A stretch of DNA of 21,804 nt from IMG/VR virus record IMGVR_UViG_3300003332_000010, positions 1-21,804 of that record. One strand, written 5' to 3'. Every line of letters begins with the position of its first letter. Positions within the stretch are counted from its first letter, which is position 1. The position numbers and the translations under genes were made by a program. Under the pieces are notes generated by a model. The model saw nothing but the letters and a program-made list of their open reading frames with translations, had not been told where the DNA came from and did not search any database. This DNA is from a virus. This document shows positions 15,765 to 20,141 of the stretch, piece after piece.

Positions 15765-17702
15765 TTAGAATCCCGGTGCAGTTGTGCAGACACAACCTCT
15801 ATGGATTGGTGCATGGAATTTTTTTCCGTGTACTTTCATTCCAGATCCGTCATCGGCGGTGATTGACTCGCCTCTTCCGATAAACGCATCAAGAATTCCG
15901 ACTGTTTTTCCATTAAGTTGCTGGCAGAACGGACAGGTTTTAGAACCTTGTGCTACCCAAACAAGTGATATGGCACCAGCAGCAGCCCAAGTAAAACGAG
16001 AGACACCTTCTGATGCTTGGACAACTTCTTGCCCCGCTATTTTATTGCCTCTGGTTTCGTCCCACTCTGACAATCTGGTATCAAGGATTTCTGCTAGTTC
16101 TGCCTGTTCGGTGTCTCTGATCAGTACAGTGAGTTGACCAAGGCTTGAATCGATATGTCTTTTCTGAAAGCCTTCGAGGTAATCAGCAATAAAAACCTCA
16201 AGCTTTTCTATGGTTTCTTCCGGGGTGTCGGTAAGGGCAGCTTTTGAAACTTTCTGAAGGTACTCCTTTGTTAGTTTTTTGAGGTTTTCACTGATCGTGA
16301 AATCTTTGTAAAAGCCCCTCAGCCAATCGGAGAGAGTTTCGACACTCTTGGAGTCGGTATGCTCTTTAACTGCTTTTTTCAACGTGGCGACTTCAGCGCT
16401 CACCATGGCAGAAGACGCCAACAGAAAACGCTTGTGATATCTTTCTCGGAGTTCGTTTCTTACAGCAACTGAAGATGTTGATTTTGTACTAATGCTCTTT
16501 TGCGGGCGCGGTTGGTCGTGAGGGGCCATGTTTAAGGGGCGAAGGTAAGTGTCGCCGCCCTTGTATGGGTTTAAGTTTTCTTTCGCTCTACATTCGTTAG
16601 GCGAATAGATTCCAGAATTTATCCCTGACCGATATACTGAGTGGCGAGTTTGGATATCAGCTCGCTCAATACCATCAAGAAGGAATTCTACATAATACCC
16701 CTGGTCACGGTCTTCCTGTGAAAGAAGATCCCTAGTTATGCATTGTTCCCAACGCCTAGCCCATGGCAACACTGTATATTTTGAAAACTCAAGAGCCTGT
16801 TGTGTGATATTCGAGAAAGCAGATTTTTCAAGGTCGCCGATCATGTGAGGAGGCACCCGAAAGATTGACGCAATTTCAGGTTTCTGGAATTTTCGTGTTT
16901 CTAAAAATTGGGCATCTTCGTTGGTCATGGAGACTGGGGAATATACAAGCCCCTCCTCCAAGACAGCAGTACCACTTTGGTTGCTGCCTCCGTGGGCTGC
17001 ATTCCACCGCTCTTTTATCCTTCCGGCCGCTACATCAGATAAAGTCTGCGGGTGACTAAGAGTGCCCGATGGTCTGGCACCATTCTTAAAAATAGTACCG
17101 CCATGTTTTTCTGTGGCCAGAGAAAGCCCAATTGATTCTTTTGCATAAGAAATTGGAGAAATACCCGTGTAACCATCAAGAGAAAGACCCATCACTCGGA
17201 AGATATTACCGGGAGGGATGGCCTCAACCTTTCCTCCGATATTGGCATTGTATTCAAGACCCCAATCTTTATTTTGCTTTACGGTTACAGAAGAAAGGGG
17301 GAGCAGTTCATAAACACGGCGTTTTTTGCCAGTGCCGACCCAATTGATAAAGCAATAGTAATTGCCACGAAGATTGAGACGTGCCATGCCAAGCTCACGA
17401 AACTCAAAAGAGGTTTGATAACTATTTGGTTTGTCGTGAAGGACTGAATATAGGGGGTGATCTATTGCCCGCTCTTTTCCTATTGCCGTTTTTCGGTAGA
17501 GAATAAGAGGGAGCTGGCCAAGAGATTCGCCAAGAATACGTACACAAGCGAAGACGGCAACACATTGCATTGCTGTTGATGGTGTAATATTTACACCTGC
17601 AGACGTACCGCCACCAGAACCAAGCAAATCTGCAAGGTCAGCCGATGTCAGTATTTTGGTTCCACCAGATTTGGTGAAAAATGATTTTATGCGCTGCAAC
17701 AT
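15765..17702 (-). CDS. Portal protein fused to a C-terminal MuF-like domain
   Basis: 645 aa, about 200 longer than typical HK97 portals. Residues 1-400 are the portal: AMQCVAVFACVRILGESLGQLPLILYRK near 43-70, NYYCFINWVGTGKKRRVYELLPL, FLETRKFQKPEIASIFRVPPHMIG, and the C-terminal YSPNECRAKENLNPYKGG motif. After a linker (400-410) comes a long helical part (411-575), then SKTCPFCQQLNGKTV (587-601) and HAPIHRGCVCTTAP (630-643). Here C590, C593, H630, H634 and C637/C639 match the conserved end of Mu gpF/SPP1 gp7 minor head proteins. Known roles: portal ring for DNA entry; MuF proteins are minor head components linked to ejection. ATG at 17702 with only weak SD-like sequence, in contrast to its neighbours. 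Confidence 0.9.
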   Translation of the reverse strand: MLQRIKSFFTKSGGTKILTSADLADLLGSGGGTSAGVNITPSTAMQCVAVFACVRILGESLGQLPLILYRKTAIGKERAIDHPLYSVLHDKPNSYQTSFEFRELGMARLNLRGNYYCFINWVGTGKKRRVYELLPLSSVTVKQNKDWGLEYNANIGGKVEAIPPGNIFRVMGLSLDGYTGISPISYAKESIGLSLATEKHGGTIFKNGARPSGTLSHPQTLSDVAAGRIKERWNAAHGGSNQSGTAVLEEGLVYSPVSMTNEDAQFLETRKFQKPEIASIFRVPPHMIGDLEKSAFSNITQQALEFSKYTVLPWARRWEQCITRDLLSQEDRDQGYYVEFLLDGIERADIQTRHSVYRSGINSGIYSPNECRAKENLNPYKGGDTYLRPLNMAPHDQPRPQKSISTKSTSSVAVRNELRERYHKRFLLASSAMVSAEVATLKKAVKEHTDSKSVETLSDWLRGFYKDFTISENLKKLTKEYLQKVSKAALTDTPEETIEKLEVFIADYLEGFQKRHIDSSLGQLTVLIRDTEQAELAEILDTRLSEWDETRGNKIAGQEVVQASEGVSRFTWAAAGAISLVWVAQGSKTCPFCQQLNGKTVGILDAFIGRGESITADDGSGMKVHGKKFHAPIHRGCVCTTAPGF

Positions 17703-17740
17703 ACATATTGTATGCCACAGGAACTATTCTTTTGTGTGGA

Positions 17741-17776
17741 AAGTGGGAAGATTGGGGAGATTGGGAAAATTGGTAA
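17741..17776. repeat. Four degenerate 9-nt direct repeats between HTH and portal genes
   Basis: Reading the plus strand, four consecutive 9-mers align: AAGTGGGAA, GATTGGGGA, GATTGGGAA, AATTGGTAA (17741-49, 17750-58, 17759-67, 17768-76). They lie just after the HTH gene stop and upstream of the portal start. Spaced direct repeats next to a small HTH gene are the usual look of an operator, but no binding evidence exists. A packaging or simple-sequence origin is also possible. Confidence 0.6.
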
Positions 17777-17781
17777 AGATT

Positions 17782-17979
17782 TTACTGGTAAAACGCCCCC
17801 TCACGCTCTTTTATCCAATTTTCAACATATAACTCATACGTGTACAAACCCTGTTTGGCCCCACCCTTGAAAAATGGTATTTGCCTTTTGTCTTTCATTC
17901 GATAAACAGTAGAGTGCCCTTTTTTTATCCGCTTCGCTACCTGTGAAACACTTAATTGTCTTCCTCGCTCATCACTCAT
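17782..17979 (-). CDS. Small helix-turn-helix (excisionase/HTH-17-like) protein
   Basis: 65 aa, ATG at 17979 sharing ATGA with the large terminase stop. Residues 9-40 form a winged-helix style HTH: LSVSQVAKRIKKGHSTVYRMKDKRQIPFFKGG, meaning a helix, a turn with GHSTVYR as recognition helix, then IPFFKGG as wing, followed by LYTYELYVENWIKER. This is the pattern of small MerR-like/excisionase DNA-binding domains. It lies between the large terminase and portal genes, where most HK97-like phages have nothing or a small head protein. Four 9-nt repeats follow it. Candidate roles are a late-operon regulator or a DNA-binding partner of packaging; both are inference. Confidence 0.8.
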   Translation of the reverse strand: MSDERGRQLSVSQVAKRIKKGHSTVYRMKDKRQIPFFKGGAKQGLYTYELYVENWIKEREGAFYQ

Positions 17980-19691
17980 AATATTATCATTTCCTCTTCT
18001 TCATATTTCGATACTTTCTTACCTTCACCAACCATGGCACGCTTCAACCCAAGGATAAGGGCGATAGCTCCGTCAATTTTTAAGTGTTCCTGGCCGATCT
18101 GTTTTTTAGGCTTCACATTTTCGTTTGTATCTTCCTGACACACGACATTCGAGAGACACCATTTTAAAATCGGGTTCCCATCATAGTGAAACTTCCCATC
18201 CCGGATAATGGCGCTTAACTCCTTGGTAGGCTCTGATAATTCTTTTACCGTCTGGTTTACTTCAACCATCTCAATATTTGCATCTTCCATGTGTGCAGCC
18301 ATTTGAGCAACATTCCAAGGATCGTGCGGCACTTCCACCACTTCAAACTGTTTTGCGTCCTTTTTCAGGTCTGTTTCAACTTGATCAATATCAAGCCTGA
18401 AACCATGGGTGAGCGTCAACCAACCCTCGCTTGCCCACCCCGCGTAATGTGCTTTATCTTCTCCTTTTGCTGCTTCCTGTGGGAGGTAAAAATCTGAAAA
18501 AGCATAATAGTGATCATCGCCGTCTATGGTCCTTTTGAAAACTTTCACTTTTGAGGCAAGATCCTCTTTTGAGGCAAGATCCAATCCAGGCCAAACATTT
18601 TCACCGGAAAAATCTTCAAGAATAAGTTCCTTATCAACACATTTTTCAAGTGCTGCCATGTCAAAATAGGCAGTGGCAACATTCATCCACTCGTTGAGAT
18701 GCTTACAACGTGTGATGTTTTGTTTTGCCGGATCTTGTAGCGCTGTCTTTAGTCTTCCCTTGAGAAAATCAGGGAAAACGGAAACTCCATAATTAGGATT
18801 TGCTTTCTTCCAGTTTTCTATATCCTGCCAATCGTCGTCTTTGTCTATTGTGTAAATGAGGCCGAATATCTCTTCATTCTCAAATATCTTTTCAAGAACC
18901 TTTACAACCTGGACCCGTTTACCATGGCAAGGGCCCGCAAGGTTCGATCCTGCAGTTGTAATAATGCAAAGAAGAGGCTGACTCCTCGCCCCCATACCTG
19001 TTGTCATCGTATCGTACTGATTTGGCGTCTTGTGCTCGTGAAATTCGTCAATAATTGCACAATGGGGGCTTGCACCGTCTCCCGGATCTCCGATTAGTGG
19101 CCGAAAACTTGAATAATCGGTGGATGTGCTTAGGTCTTTGGCGTGGATTTCAACAGAATAAAAGTCACAAAGTGCCTCATTCTGCTTTGCCATGAGCCTG
19201 GCAGGTTTGAAAACCTCCCACGCTTGCGCCTCTGTTGTTGCTCCAGAGTAGACTTCCGCGCCTCCTTCATTGTCAGCGCAGAACATATACAGGCCAATAA
19301 TAGCACCAAGCACTGATTTACCGTTTTTTCGTGGAATTTCTGAGTAACATTCACGAAAACGGCGCATTCCTGTTGACTGATGCACCCAACCGAACAGGGT
19401 AGCCAGAAAAAATATCTGCCATGGTTCGAGAAAGATATTCTTTCCTTTCCAAACACCTTTGACATGCTGCAGCTGCTCTGCAAAGGCACATATTCTTTCA
19501 GCAGGGCAATATTCTTTTCCATGAACATCAACCAGGTAAGGATTATACAAATATGGAAAATCCTCTGTGCCCTGGCGTTCAAGATCGTCAAGTTGTCGCT
19601 GTGCGGCCCGGACCGTTATTTTTGCAGCCGGAATTTTACCGGAAACGATATCCAGTGCATACTGGTGAGCTATTTGGACATAATCTCTCAC
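17976..19691 (-). CDS. terL: Large terminase subunit
   Basis: 571 aa from a GTG at 19691 that directly abuts the TAA of the small terminase; no strong SD, so coupling is likely. ATPase domain: adenine-motif region EPWQIFFLATLFGW (89-102), Walker A at 121-126 (RKNGKS) in EIPRKNGKSVLGA, Walker B CAIIDE at 211-216 with D215/E216, and coupling motif ITTAGSN at 244-250. Nuclease domain: GLDLAS with D371 as the first metal ligand, then a conserved YAFSDFYLP strand, and later acidic residues near the C-terminus (KIDGAIALILGLKRA). Known role: powers DNA translocation into the prohead and cuts concatemers. Terminase_1/HK97-type by overall pattern. Confidence 0.93.
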   Translation of the reverse strand: MRDYVQIAHQYALDIVSGKIPAAKITVRAAQRQLDDLERQGTEDFPYLYNPYLVDVHGKEYCPAERICAFAEQLQHVKGVWKGKNIFLEPWQIFFLATLFGWVHQSTGMRRFRECYSEIPRKNGKSVLGAIIGLYMFCADNEGGAEVYSGATTEAQAWEVFKPARLMAKQNEALCDFYSVEIHAKDLSTSTDYSSFRPLIGDPGDGASPHCAIIDEFHEHKTPNQYDTMTTGMGARSQPLLCIITTAGSNLAGPCHGKRVQVVKVLEKIFENEEIFGLIYTIDKDDDWQDIENWKKANPNYGVSVFPDFLKGRLKTALQDPAKQNITRCKHLNEWMNVATAYFDMAALEKCVDKELILEDFSGENVWPGLDLASKEDLASKVKVFKRTIDGDDHYYAFSDFYLPQEAAKGEDKAHYAGWASEGWLTLTHGFRLDIDQVETDLKKDAKQFEVVEVPHDPWNVAQMAAHMEDANIEMVEVNQTVKELSEPTKELSAIIRDGKFHYDGNPILKWCLSNVVCQEDTNENVKPKKQIGQEHLKIDGAIALILGLKRAMVGEGKKVSKYEEEEMIIL

Positions 19692-20141
19692 TTAAATGTC
19701 ACTAAATCCAGTTTTCTTCTCTTTTTTCTTCGGGACTTTTACTCTTGATCTACTGGCCGGTGTCATGCCAAACTCGACAAGGAATTTTTTCATATTCTCT
19801 GCCGCTTTATTTGCTATTGCCACATACGGATTTTGCATCATGTACCCCTTCTCTGTCGTTGTAACTAATCCTCCTTTTTCTAACTCCTTCTCAGCCTCAC
19901 ACCATCGCTGCCAATTCTGGCAATACACAGCCAAAGCCGTACGATCCACCTCAGTCAACAAGCCAAGGCCATGCAATTCCTTGGTGATTCGTTTCCACTC
20001 CGTCTTTGCAATCCCTTGGAGGATGCGTGGTTTTACAGGTATTTTCCCCTCTGGTTCCGGCTCCTGGTCGTTCAGGGGCCTTTTCCCTCGATTACCTGTT
20101 AAAAGCTTAATTTTGGTTGGCATTGGTGCTGGTCCTGGCAT
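19692..20141 (-). CDS. terS: Small terminase subunit, P27 family
   Basis: 149 aa, ATG at 20141 behind GGGGGAAAT. It has the P27-type signature: MPGPAPMPTKIKLLTGNRGKRPLNDQEPEPEGKIP at the start (PGPAPxPTxxxxLxGNxG), then helices PRILQGIAKTEWKRITKELHGLGLLTEVDRTALAVYCQNWQRWCEAEKELE, a short beta hairpin (GLVTTTEKGYMMQNP), and the helix NPYVAIANKAAENMKKFLVEFGMTPASRSRV. Known role: binds the packaging site on DNA and recruits the large subunit. Located between the HNH and large terminase genes. Confidence 0.9.
   Translation of the reverse strand: MPGPAPMPTKIKLLTGNRGKRPLNDQEPEPEGKIPVKPRILQGIAKTEWKRITKELHGLGLLTEVDRTALAVYCQNWQRWCEAEKELEKGGLVTTTEKGYMMQNPYVAIANKAAENMKKFLVEFGMTPASRSRVKVPKKKEKKTGFSDI

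Follow-up and report, generated by a model that had tools for sequence, protein, structure and literature searches.

Among described systems, the one closest to the locus analysed here is that of BldC, a 68-aa MerR-like protein of Streptomyces (6AMA, 6AMK). BldC protomers each bind one 9-bp direct repeat in a head-to-tail manner, the number of repeats being variable, and the operator consensus is AATTXXXX(C), in which Arg30 reads the C-G pair (PMC5859096). RdfS is another oligomeric winged helix-turn-helix (HTH) protein and has been compared with BldC (PMC11963761). In a shallow literature search, with thin coverage of the subscription literature, we found no description of the HTH/array arrangement reported below.

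The window, by which we mean the whole stretch of DNA that was analysed, is a single virus record of 21,804 bases. Its − strand carries, in this order, genes for an HNH protein, a Terminase_4 small subunit, the terminase large subunit (TerL) and a 65-aa HTH protein, then a 79-nt gap, and then genes for the portal, the prohead protease and the major capsid protein; the ATG of the HTH gene overlaps the TerL stop codon (Table 1). A preliminary description had placed a 65-aa protein with an excisionase/MerR-like HTH beside a 9-nt repeat between TerL and the portal; the presence there of an HTH gene and of the repeat is confirmed. Among the best 80 of the matches listed, the nearest cellular relatives of TerL came from genomes titled Desulfarculales (54%) and Pseudodesulfovibrio (51%). 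TerL also contains, at 18548-18582, a perfect 18-nt tandem repeat of 1.9 copies, which by its position codes for DLASKEDLASK.

Table 1. Coordinates of the features at the TerL-portal junction of the window.
Feature	Position	Strand	Basis
Terminase_4 small-subunit gene	19692-20141		domain search
Terminase large subunit (TerL), upstream of HTH	17976..19691	−	ORF call and domain search
65-aa winged HTH (BldC/Xis/Nu1-type fold)	17782..17979	−	ORF call, Pfam, PHROG, AF2 model, VIA-align
Array, five head-to-tail 9-mers	17736..17780	−	TRF and in-phase scan
12-pair predicted hairpin, 3 pairs G-U, portal ATG inside	17694..17720	−	predicted folding
Portal gene (Phage_portal PF04860), presumed regulatory target	15765..17702	−	ORF call and domain search

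TRF reported a period of 9 with 3.3 copies at 17744-17773, and an in-phase scan of the − strand from 17780 down to 17736 resolved the units ATCTTTACC AATTTTCCC AATCTCCCC AATCTTCCC ACTTTCCAC. The five units show 36 of 45 column-majority matches, a score that was never equalled when the gap was dinucleotide-shuffled 2000 times; the scores for three and for four units were likewise reached by 0/2000 shuffles each, and the window has no better period-9 place by 3-unit score. Positions A1, T5 and C9 are identical across all five units. The core of the array consists of three good units (17745-17771) and the two outer units are degenerate, so that the earlier count of four degenerate head-to-tail 9-mers was a fair one. 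The window array is not due to chance.

The HTH protein gave a match to Pfam HTH_17 that lies below the curated cut-off (E=1.7e-4; 22.2 vs 27 bits), a match to PHROG 15534 'HTH DNA binding protein' (5.8e-6) and a weak one to PHROG 66 'excisionase and transcriptional regulator' (E 1.4e-4). Its AlphaFold2 model, built from a four-row alignment, is a winged HTH (pLDDT 81, pTM 0.61) with a MerR-like fold and neither a dimerisation nor an effector domain. Foldseek searches of the PDB with this model gave only weak matches, the best being a packaging-motor entry at E 0.04 and BldC the sixth at 0.06, with none at E <= 0.001. The top VIA-align match was the BldC-DNA structure 6ama_A (Z 8.4, 2.2 A, 54 aligned); other matches were Pukovnik Xis (Z 8.1), BldC-whiI 6amk_B (Z 8.0, 1.5 A, 51 aligned), the packaging-redirection entry 6hn7 (Z 7.9), a transposon excisionase (Z 7.7), the packaging-motor entries 7lw0 and 7lwr (Z 7.3) and gpNu1 (Z 5.3), and in this ranking rows less than 1 Z apart count as tied and unrelated folds can reach Z near 8. 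Sequence homology to BldC was at noise level, with alignment z values of 0.7 for the window protein and 1.9, 0.4 and 0.9 for its counterparts in three related loci (L002, L036 and L222), and BldC was not one of the 7 matches at E <= 1 that the HTH profile found among PDB sequences. Because this homology was tested and did not emerge, we do not file the HTH as a member of the BldC family.

The HTHs of the window, L002, L036 and L222 are mutual distant homologues (alignment z 5.9 to 19). No close relative of the window HTH was confirmed in the viral contigs searched, and three of the HTHs compared with 50,697 phage records gave one match at E 0.01, none and none, respectively. As for cellular genomes, the HTH profile found a match at E <= 1e-7 in 10 of 297 genomes of the phylum of genome G001 and none at E <= 1e-8 in 398 and 39 genomes of two other phyla, a null that shows little; 12 more distant cellular relatives of the HTH have no array, TerL or portal in their flanks of ~1.5 kb. 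A generic host-chromosome repeat was set aside as the identity of the array, the exact window array being present in 0 of 148 genomes of the phylum of genome G001.

We then surveyed TerL-portal intervals in 228 loci fetched by TerL or portal among the matches listed, a set that includes the window and many near-duplicates and was not dereplicated. A usable TerL-portal pair was present in 218 of them and the other 10 were dropped; array scoring covered intervals of at least 60 nt, and HTHs were searched for with a profile made from the first three, L222 being out of sample. An HTH was found in 4 of the 218 intervals. The top three period-9 scores (0.93) belonged to the window, L002 and L036, and the next was 0.89; thus, arrays occurred in three of the four HTH-bearing intervals and no score exceeded 0.89 in the other 214. 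Fisher's test for the HTH-array association gave 2e-6 over the 218 intervals, 0.0035 over the only 20 that have at least 45 nt of noncoding DNA, and 0.018 over these 20 when the window and L002 were counted once, the effective number of independent cases being two or three. The arrangement of an HTH gene and a 9-nt array at the TerL-portal junction is real in three phages.

L002, the nearest relative that the searches turned up (TerL 90%, portal 81%), carries at the position of the window HTH a different one of 59 aa and, in the same gap, a different array, AATTTTACC CATGTTACC TGTGTTACC TATGTCGTT, whose 3- and 4-unit scores were reached by 0/2000 shuffles each. DNA identity between the two phages drops from 0.85 at the TerL end to 0.35 in the HTH gene, is 0.48 across the gap and recovers to 0.71 where the portal gene starts; HTH and array thus differ jointly. 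The distant locus L036 (TerL 41% identical) has a 68-aa HTH, then a further 75-aa ORF, then the array ATCTTTGTC AATTTCCTC AATTTCGTC AATTTATTC TATTTTTCC (5-unit score reached by 2/2000 shuffles), then the portal gene. In this way, each of three different HTHs is accompanied by a different 9-nt array upstream of the portal gene. The arrays share one orientation, end 33, 34 and 42 nt from the portal ATG, and their units match best in the same register (p 0.014, 0.048 and 0.18). L222 (TerL 55%) has the HTH but no clear array; after its HTH gene (2476-2556), TAAT(C/T) occurs at 2476, 2494, 2509 and 2546, together with an inverted repeat seen by eye, and these motifs are possibly a different operator. 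Fourteen further loci related to L036 by TerL showed no HTH and no period-9 array of at least 0.90 in the DNA examined. Several loci, L010, L011, L021, L042, L045, L054 and L222 among them, have an ORF of 50-67 aa, hydrophobic by eye, between TerL and portal. The TerL-portal interval with such small hydrophobic ORFs is an accessory-gene site.

The preliminary description had proposed a regulator-operator unit, to be examined through co-occurrence of HTH and repeat in related phages, and had taken HTH-bearing relatives without the repeat, or a repeat drifting among close relatives, as arguments against it. The array in three of the four HTH-bearing intervals and the joint difference between the window and L002 support the proposal, while L222, with its HTH but no clear array, means that the first of these objections applies in part; the second also applies in part, since the unit does change between the window and L002, but so does the HTH. 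We consider that the HTH is a BldC/Xis-like regulator with the array as its own operator, controlling the head genes, and give this reading, in which the HTH would bind DNA, a probability of about 0.5.

Arrays of the same units occur in other phages, and they bear on the alternative that survives best, namely that the array represents replication-origin iterons for a phage helicase/primase and lies beside the HTH gene by chance. Tandem 9-nt arrays of GTTACCnnT recur in intergenic viral DNA: the L002 unit was found in triplicate in at least 120 viral loci, and besides L002 (119 loci among the matches listed, L071-L189) there are 77 intergenic GTTACC arrays in 74 loci, arrays inside ORFs of at least 100 aa having been excluded from this count and from a second one, of 26. 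Among the matches listed, a primase/helicase-type protein lies within 2.5 kb of the array in 44 of the 74 loci, of which 38 fall in one single-linkage cluster and the rest in groups of 4 and 2. A scan of 17 of the main cluster's 40 proteins gave 9 DUF927 and 6 VapE-like proteins, and the commonest PHROGs were primases and helicases; the other two groups were of the NrS-1 and Prim-Pol/D5 types. These GTTACCnnT arrays resemble iterons for replication, or operators, that have a unit in common. In a contig titled Nitrosospira (L312:2070-2330), a VapE-like helicase gene is immediately followed by several AAGGTTAGG-type 9-nt arrays that run in both orientations, and the region looks like an origin. 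The window array, in contrast, is a single array in one orientation within the late block, at least 4 kb from the end of the window at which replication genes could be located, and no GC-skew change occurs at its site; no helicase or primase was found among the window proteins scanned (6 by Pfam, 8 by PHROGs), in a record that may be a fragment. In the 15.2-kb record of L036, the sole other period-9 stretch (0.89) is GC-rich and inside an ORF. Origin iterons would also leave the joint difference of array and HTH unexplained, and we regard them as an unlikely account of the window array.

The window unit itself forms arrays in 32 viral loci (L190-L221), compared with 2 for the reversed control pattern. 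Several of these AATCTTCCC arrays lie beside late genes of other phages and some end a few nucleotides before an ATG; a terminase large subunit was confirmed near the arrays of L217, L199, L215 and L214, and a tape-measure protein in L203. HTH_17 (E <= 1e-4) was detected in 0 of 9 records with AATCTTCCC arrays, 4 of 11 with GTTACC arrays and 1 of 20 controls, in a sample chosen for long contigs that covered 9 of the 32 and 11 of the 119 loci and included L212, whose array is within ORFs. Arrays of the window and L002 units thus occur without this HTH, and other proteins may read them.

An alternative to which we attach a slightly lower, again small, likelihood is that the array is a neutral minisatellite, produced by replication slippage where intergenic space is rare. 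The scarcity of intervals with at least 45 nt of noncoding DNA, the degenerate outer units and L222, which lacks an array, fit this explanation. The recurrence of the window unit over its reversed control does not, nor does the preference for a single period: in the 2.04 Mb of loci, noncoding tandem arrays scoring at least 0.9 numbered five for period 9, three for period 7, one each for periods 8 and 15 and none for periods 10-14, and all those scoring at least 0.93 had period 9 except for one 15-mer. Slippage likewise sits poorly with different arrays at one place beside HTH genes.

The properties of the portal start raise the further, rather improbable, alternative that the array acts as RNA, as a pyrimidine-rich leader for ribosome S1 entry or Rho loading before a portal gene lacking a Shine-Dalgarno sequence. 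As the preliminary description had stated, this start has no good Shine-Dalgarno sequence, the value being almost nil (−0.9 kcal/mol). Among the 29 window gene starts tested, at positions given by the ORF finder, 6 of the 28 others are no better than −1.1, some of these probably being wrong ORF-finder starts. The −25..+25 region of the portal start folds at −14.4 kcal/mol, the lowest of the 29, with the ATG inside the 12-pair hairpin, so that a poor start is predicted. The portal ATGs of L002 and L036 also lie inside predicted hairpins, with different pairings. The array is C+T-rich and, as described above, arrays of the window unit in several other phages end just upstream of an ATG, in agreement with an RNA role. 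However, the array is partly paired in the minimum-energy folds of the window and L002 (in L036 it is mostly unpaired), and none of the leaders departs much from its shuffles in folding (z −1.6, a moderate value, for the 111 nt of the window, and −1.3 and −0.04 for L002 and L036). S1 or Rho need no strict 9-nt period, GTTACC arrays at other sites point either way relative to genes, and an RNA role gives no reason for the array to differ together with the HTH. An intrinsic terminator in the gap was set aside as well: there is none in the window or L002, and the two in L036 are inside its portal gene. No sigma-70 promoter-like site was called in the window gap, so a local promoter is something that we infer; an imperfect TACAAT lies just before the portal ATG, and the best promoter-like match of L036 (11/12), which lies on the other strand, has its first hexamer within the array.

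The packaging role also suggested in the preliminary description, with the array as a cos/pac or accessory terminase recognition site and the HTH resembling gpNu1 or the 6hn7 island protein, is very improbable and found no direct support, since a Terminase_4 small subunit is already encoded by the phage and TerL lies upstream of the array, even though the gene is in the packaging block and its model also matches 6hn7, 7lw0/7lwr and gpNu1.

Returning to the regulator with its own array operator, we infer DNA binding, filament formation, a promoter and the sign of regulation along the following lines. The HTH would be a stand-alone DNA-binding protein, a winged HTH structurally of the BldC/Xis kind, that binds the neighbouring 9-bp direct repeats head-to-tail, one protomer per repeat, to give a short filament. 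Once bound, it would control transcription that runs into the portal gene or begins there, along with, possibly, its own operon. On a read-through mRNA the portal would be badly translated, because it lacks a Shine-Dalgarno sequence and a hairpin encloses its start codon, and an HTH-controlled promoter in the gap could start a short-leader mRNA devoid of the 5' arm of that hairpin. From one relative to another, protein and operator may be exchanged together or may diverge together.

A broader proposal, which we consider doubtful, is that this is a phage cassette in which a BldC-like winged HTH is swapped together with its 9-bp array, the two forming a specificity pair, that each lineage thereby gates its own head operon while the start-codon hairpin silences read-through portal mRNA, and that 9-bp arrays of a few recurrent units are an undescribed class of phage cis-elements. 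If this were true, BldC-like binding of 9-bp direct repeats would be a compact, exchangeable phage switch for head-gene expression, the natural protein-array pairs would allow a direct comparison of DNA recognition by small winged HTHs, and a meaning would be suggested for the 9-bp arrays that many viral contigs carry near replication genes and late genes.

Compared with known systems, the array resembles P4-type origin iterons, which are short tandem direct repeats, and the primase-side GTTACC arrays, whose unit is common to L002. It differs from both in that it is not beside known replication genes, has a single orientation and differs jointly with the HTH. With gpNu1 (1J9I) and the packaging-redirecting protein of 6HN7, which we take to be Rpp, the window HTH has in common its predicted fold and its genomic neighbourhood; nevertheless, the separate small terminase of the window phage leaves the HTH without a gpNu1-type small-terminase role. 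The likeness to recombination directionality factors of the Xis/RdfS type (4J2N, 8DGL) is in the predicted fold (VIA-align Z 8.1 and 7.0) and in the weak excisionase match to PHROG 66, and RdfS oligomerises on DNA (PMC11963761), but the window HTH sits in a head-packaging block.

As for BldC, both proteins are small stand-alone winged HTHs. BldC controls a chromosomal regulon, whereas the window HTH is phage-encoded and its gene adjoins the presumed binding site, and the two have no detectable sequence relationship. The array resembles the BldC operator in being made of 9-bp direct repeats, which vary in number, and, in part, in its unit (AATT....C). The array period equals the 9-bp BldC footprint, and it was established before the comparison with BldC. 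Against the BldC consensus AATTXXXX(C) we set the units AATTTCCTC AATTTCGTC AATTTATTC of L036 and AATTTTCCC AATCTCCCC AATCTTCCC of the window, and among the L002 units AATTXXXXC fits the first only. Exact AATTNNNNC is present in 1/5 units of the window, 3/5 of L036 and 1/4 of L002, and 3/5 window units have AATY. In our own mapping from the aligned ranges of the four proteins, the residue facing BldC Arg30 is Arg27 in the window HTH, Arg in L036, Lys in L002 and Gln in L222. On present evidence, the window HTH appears to work like BldC.
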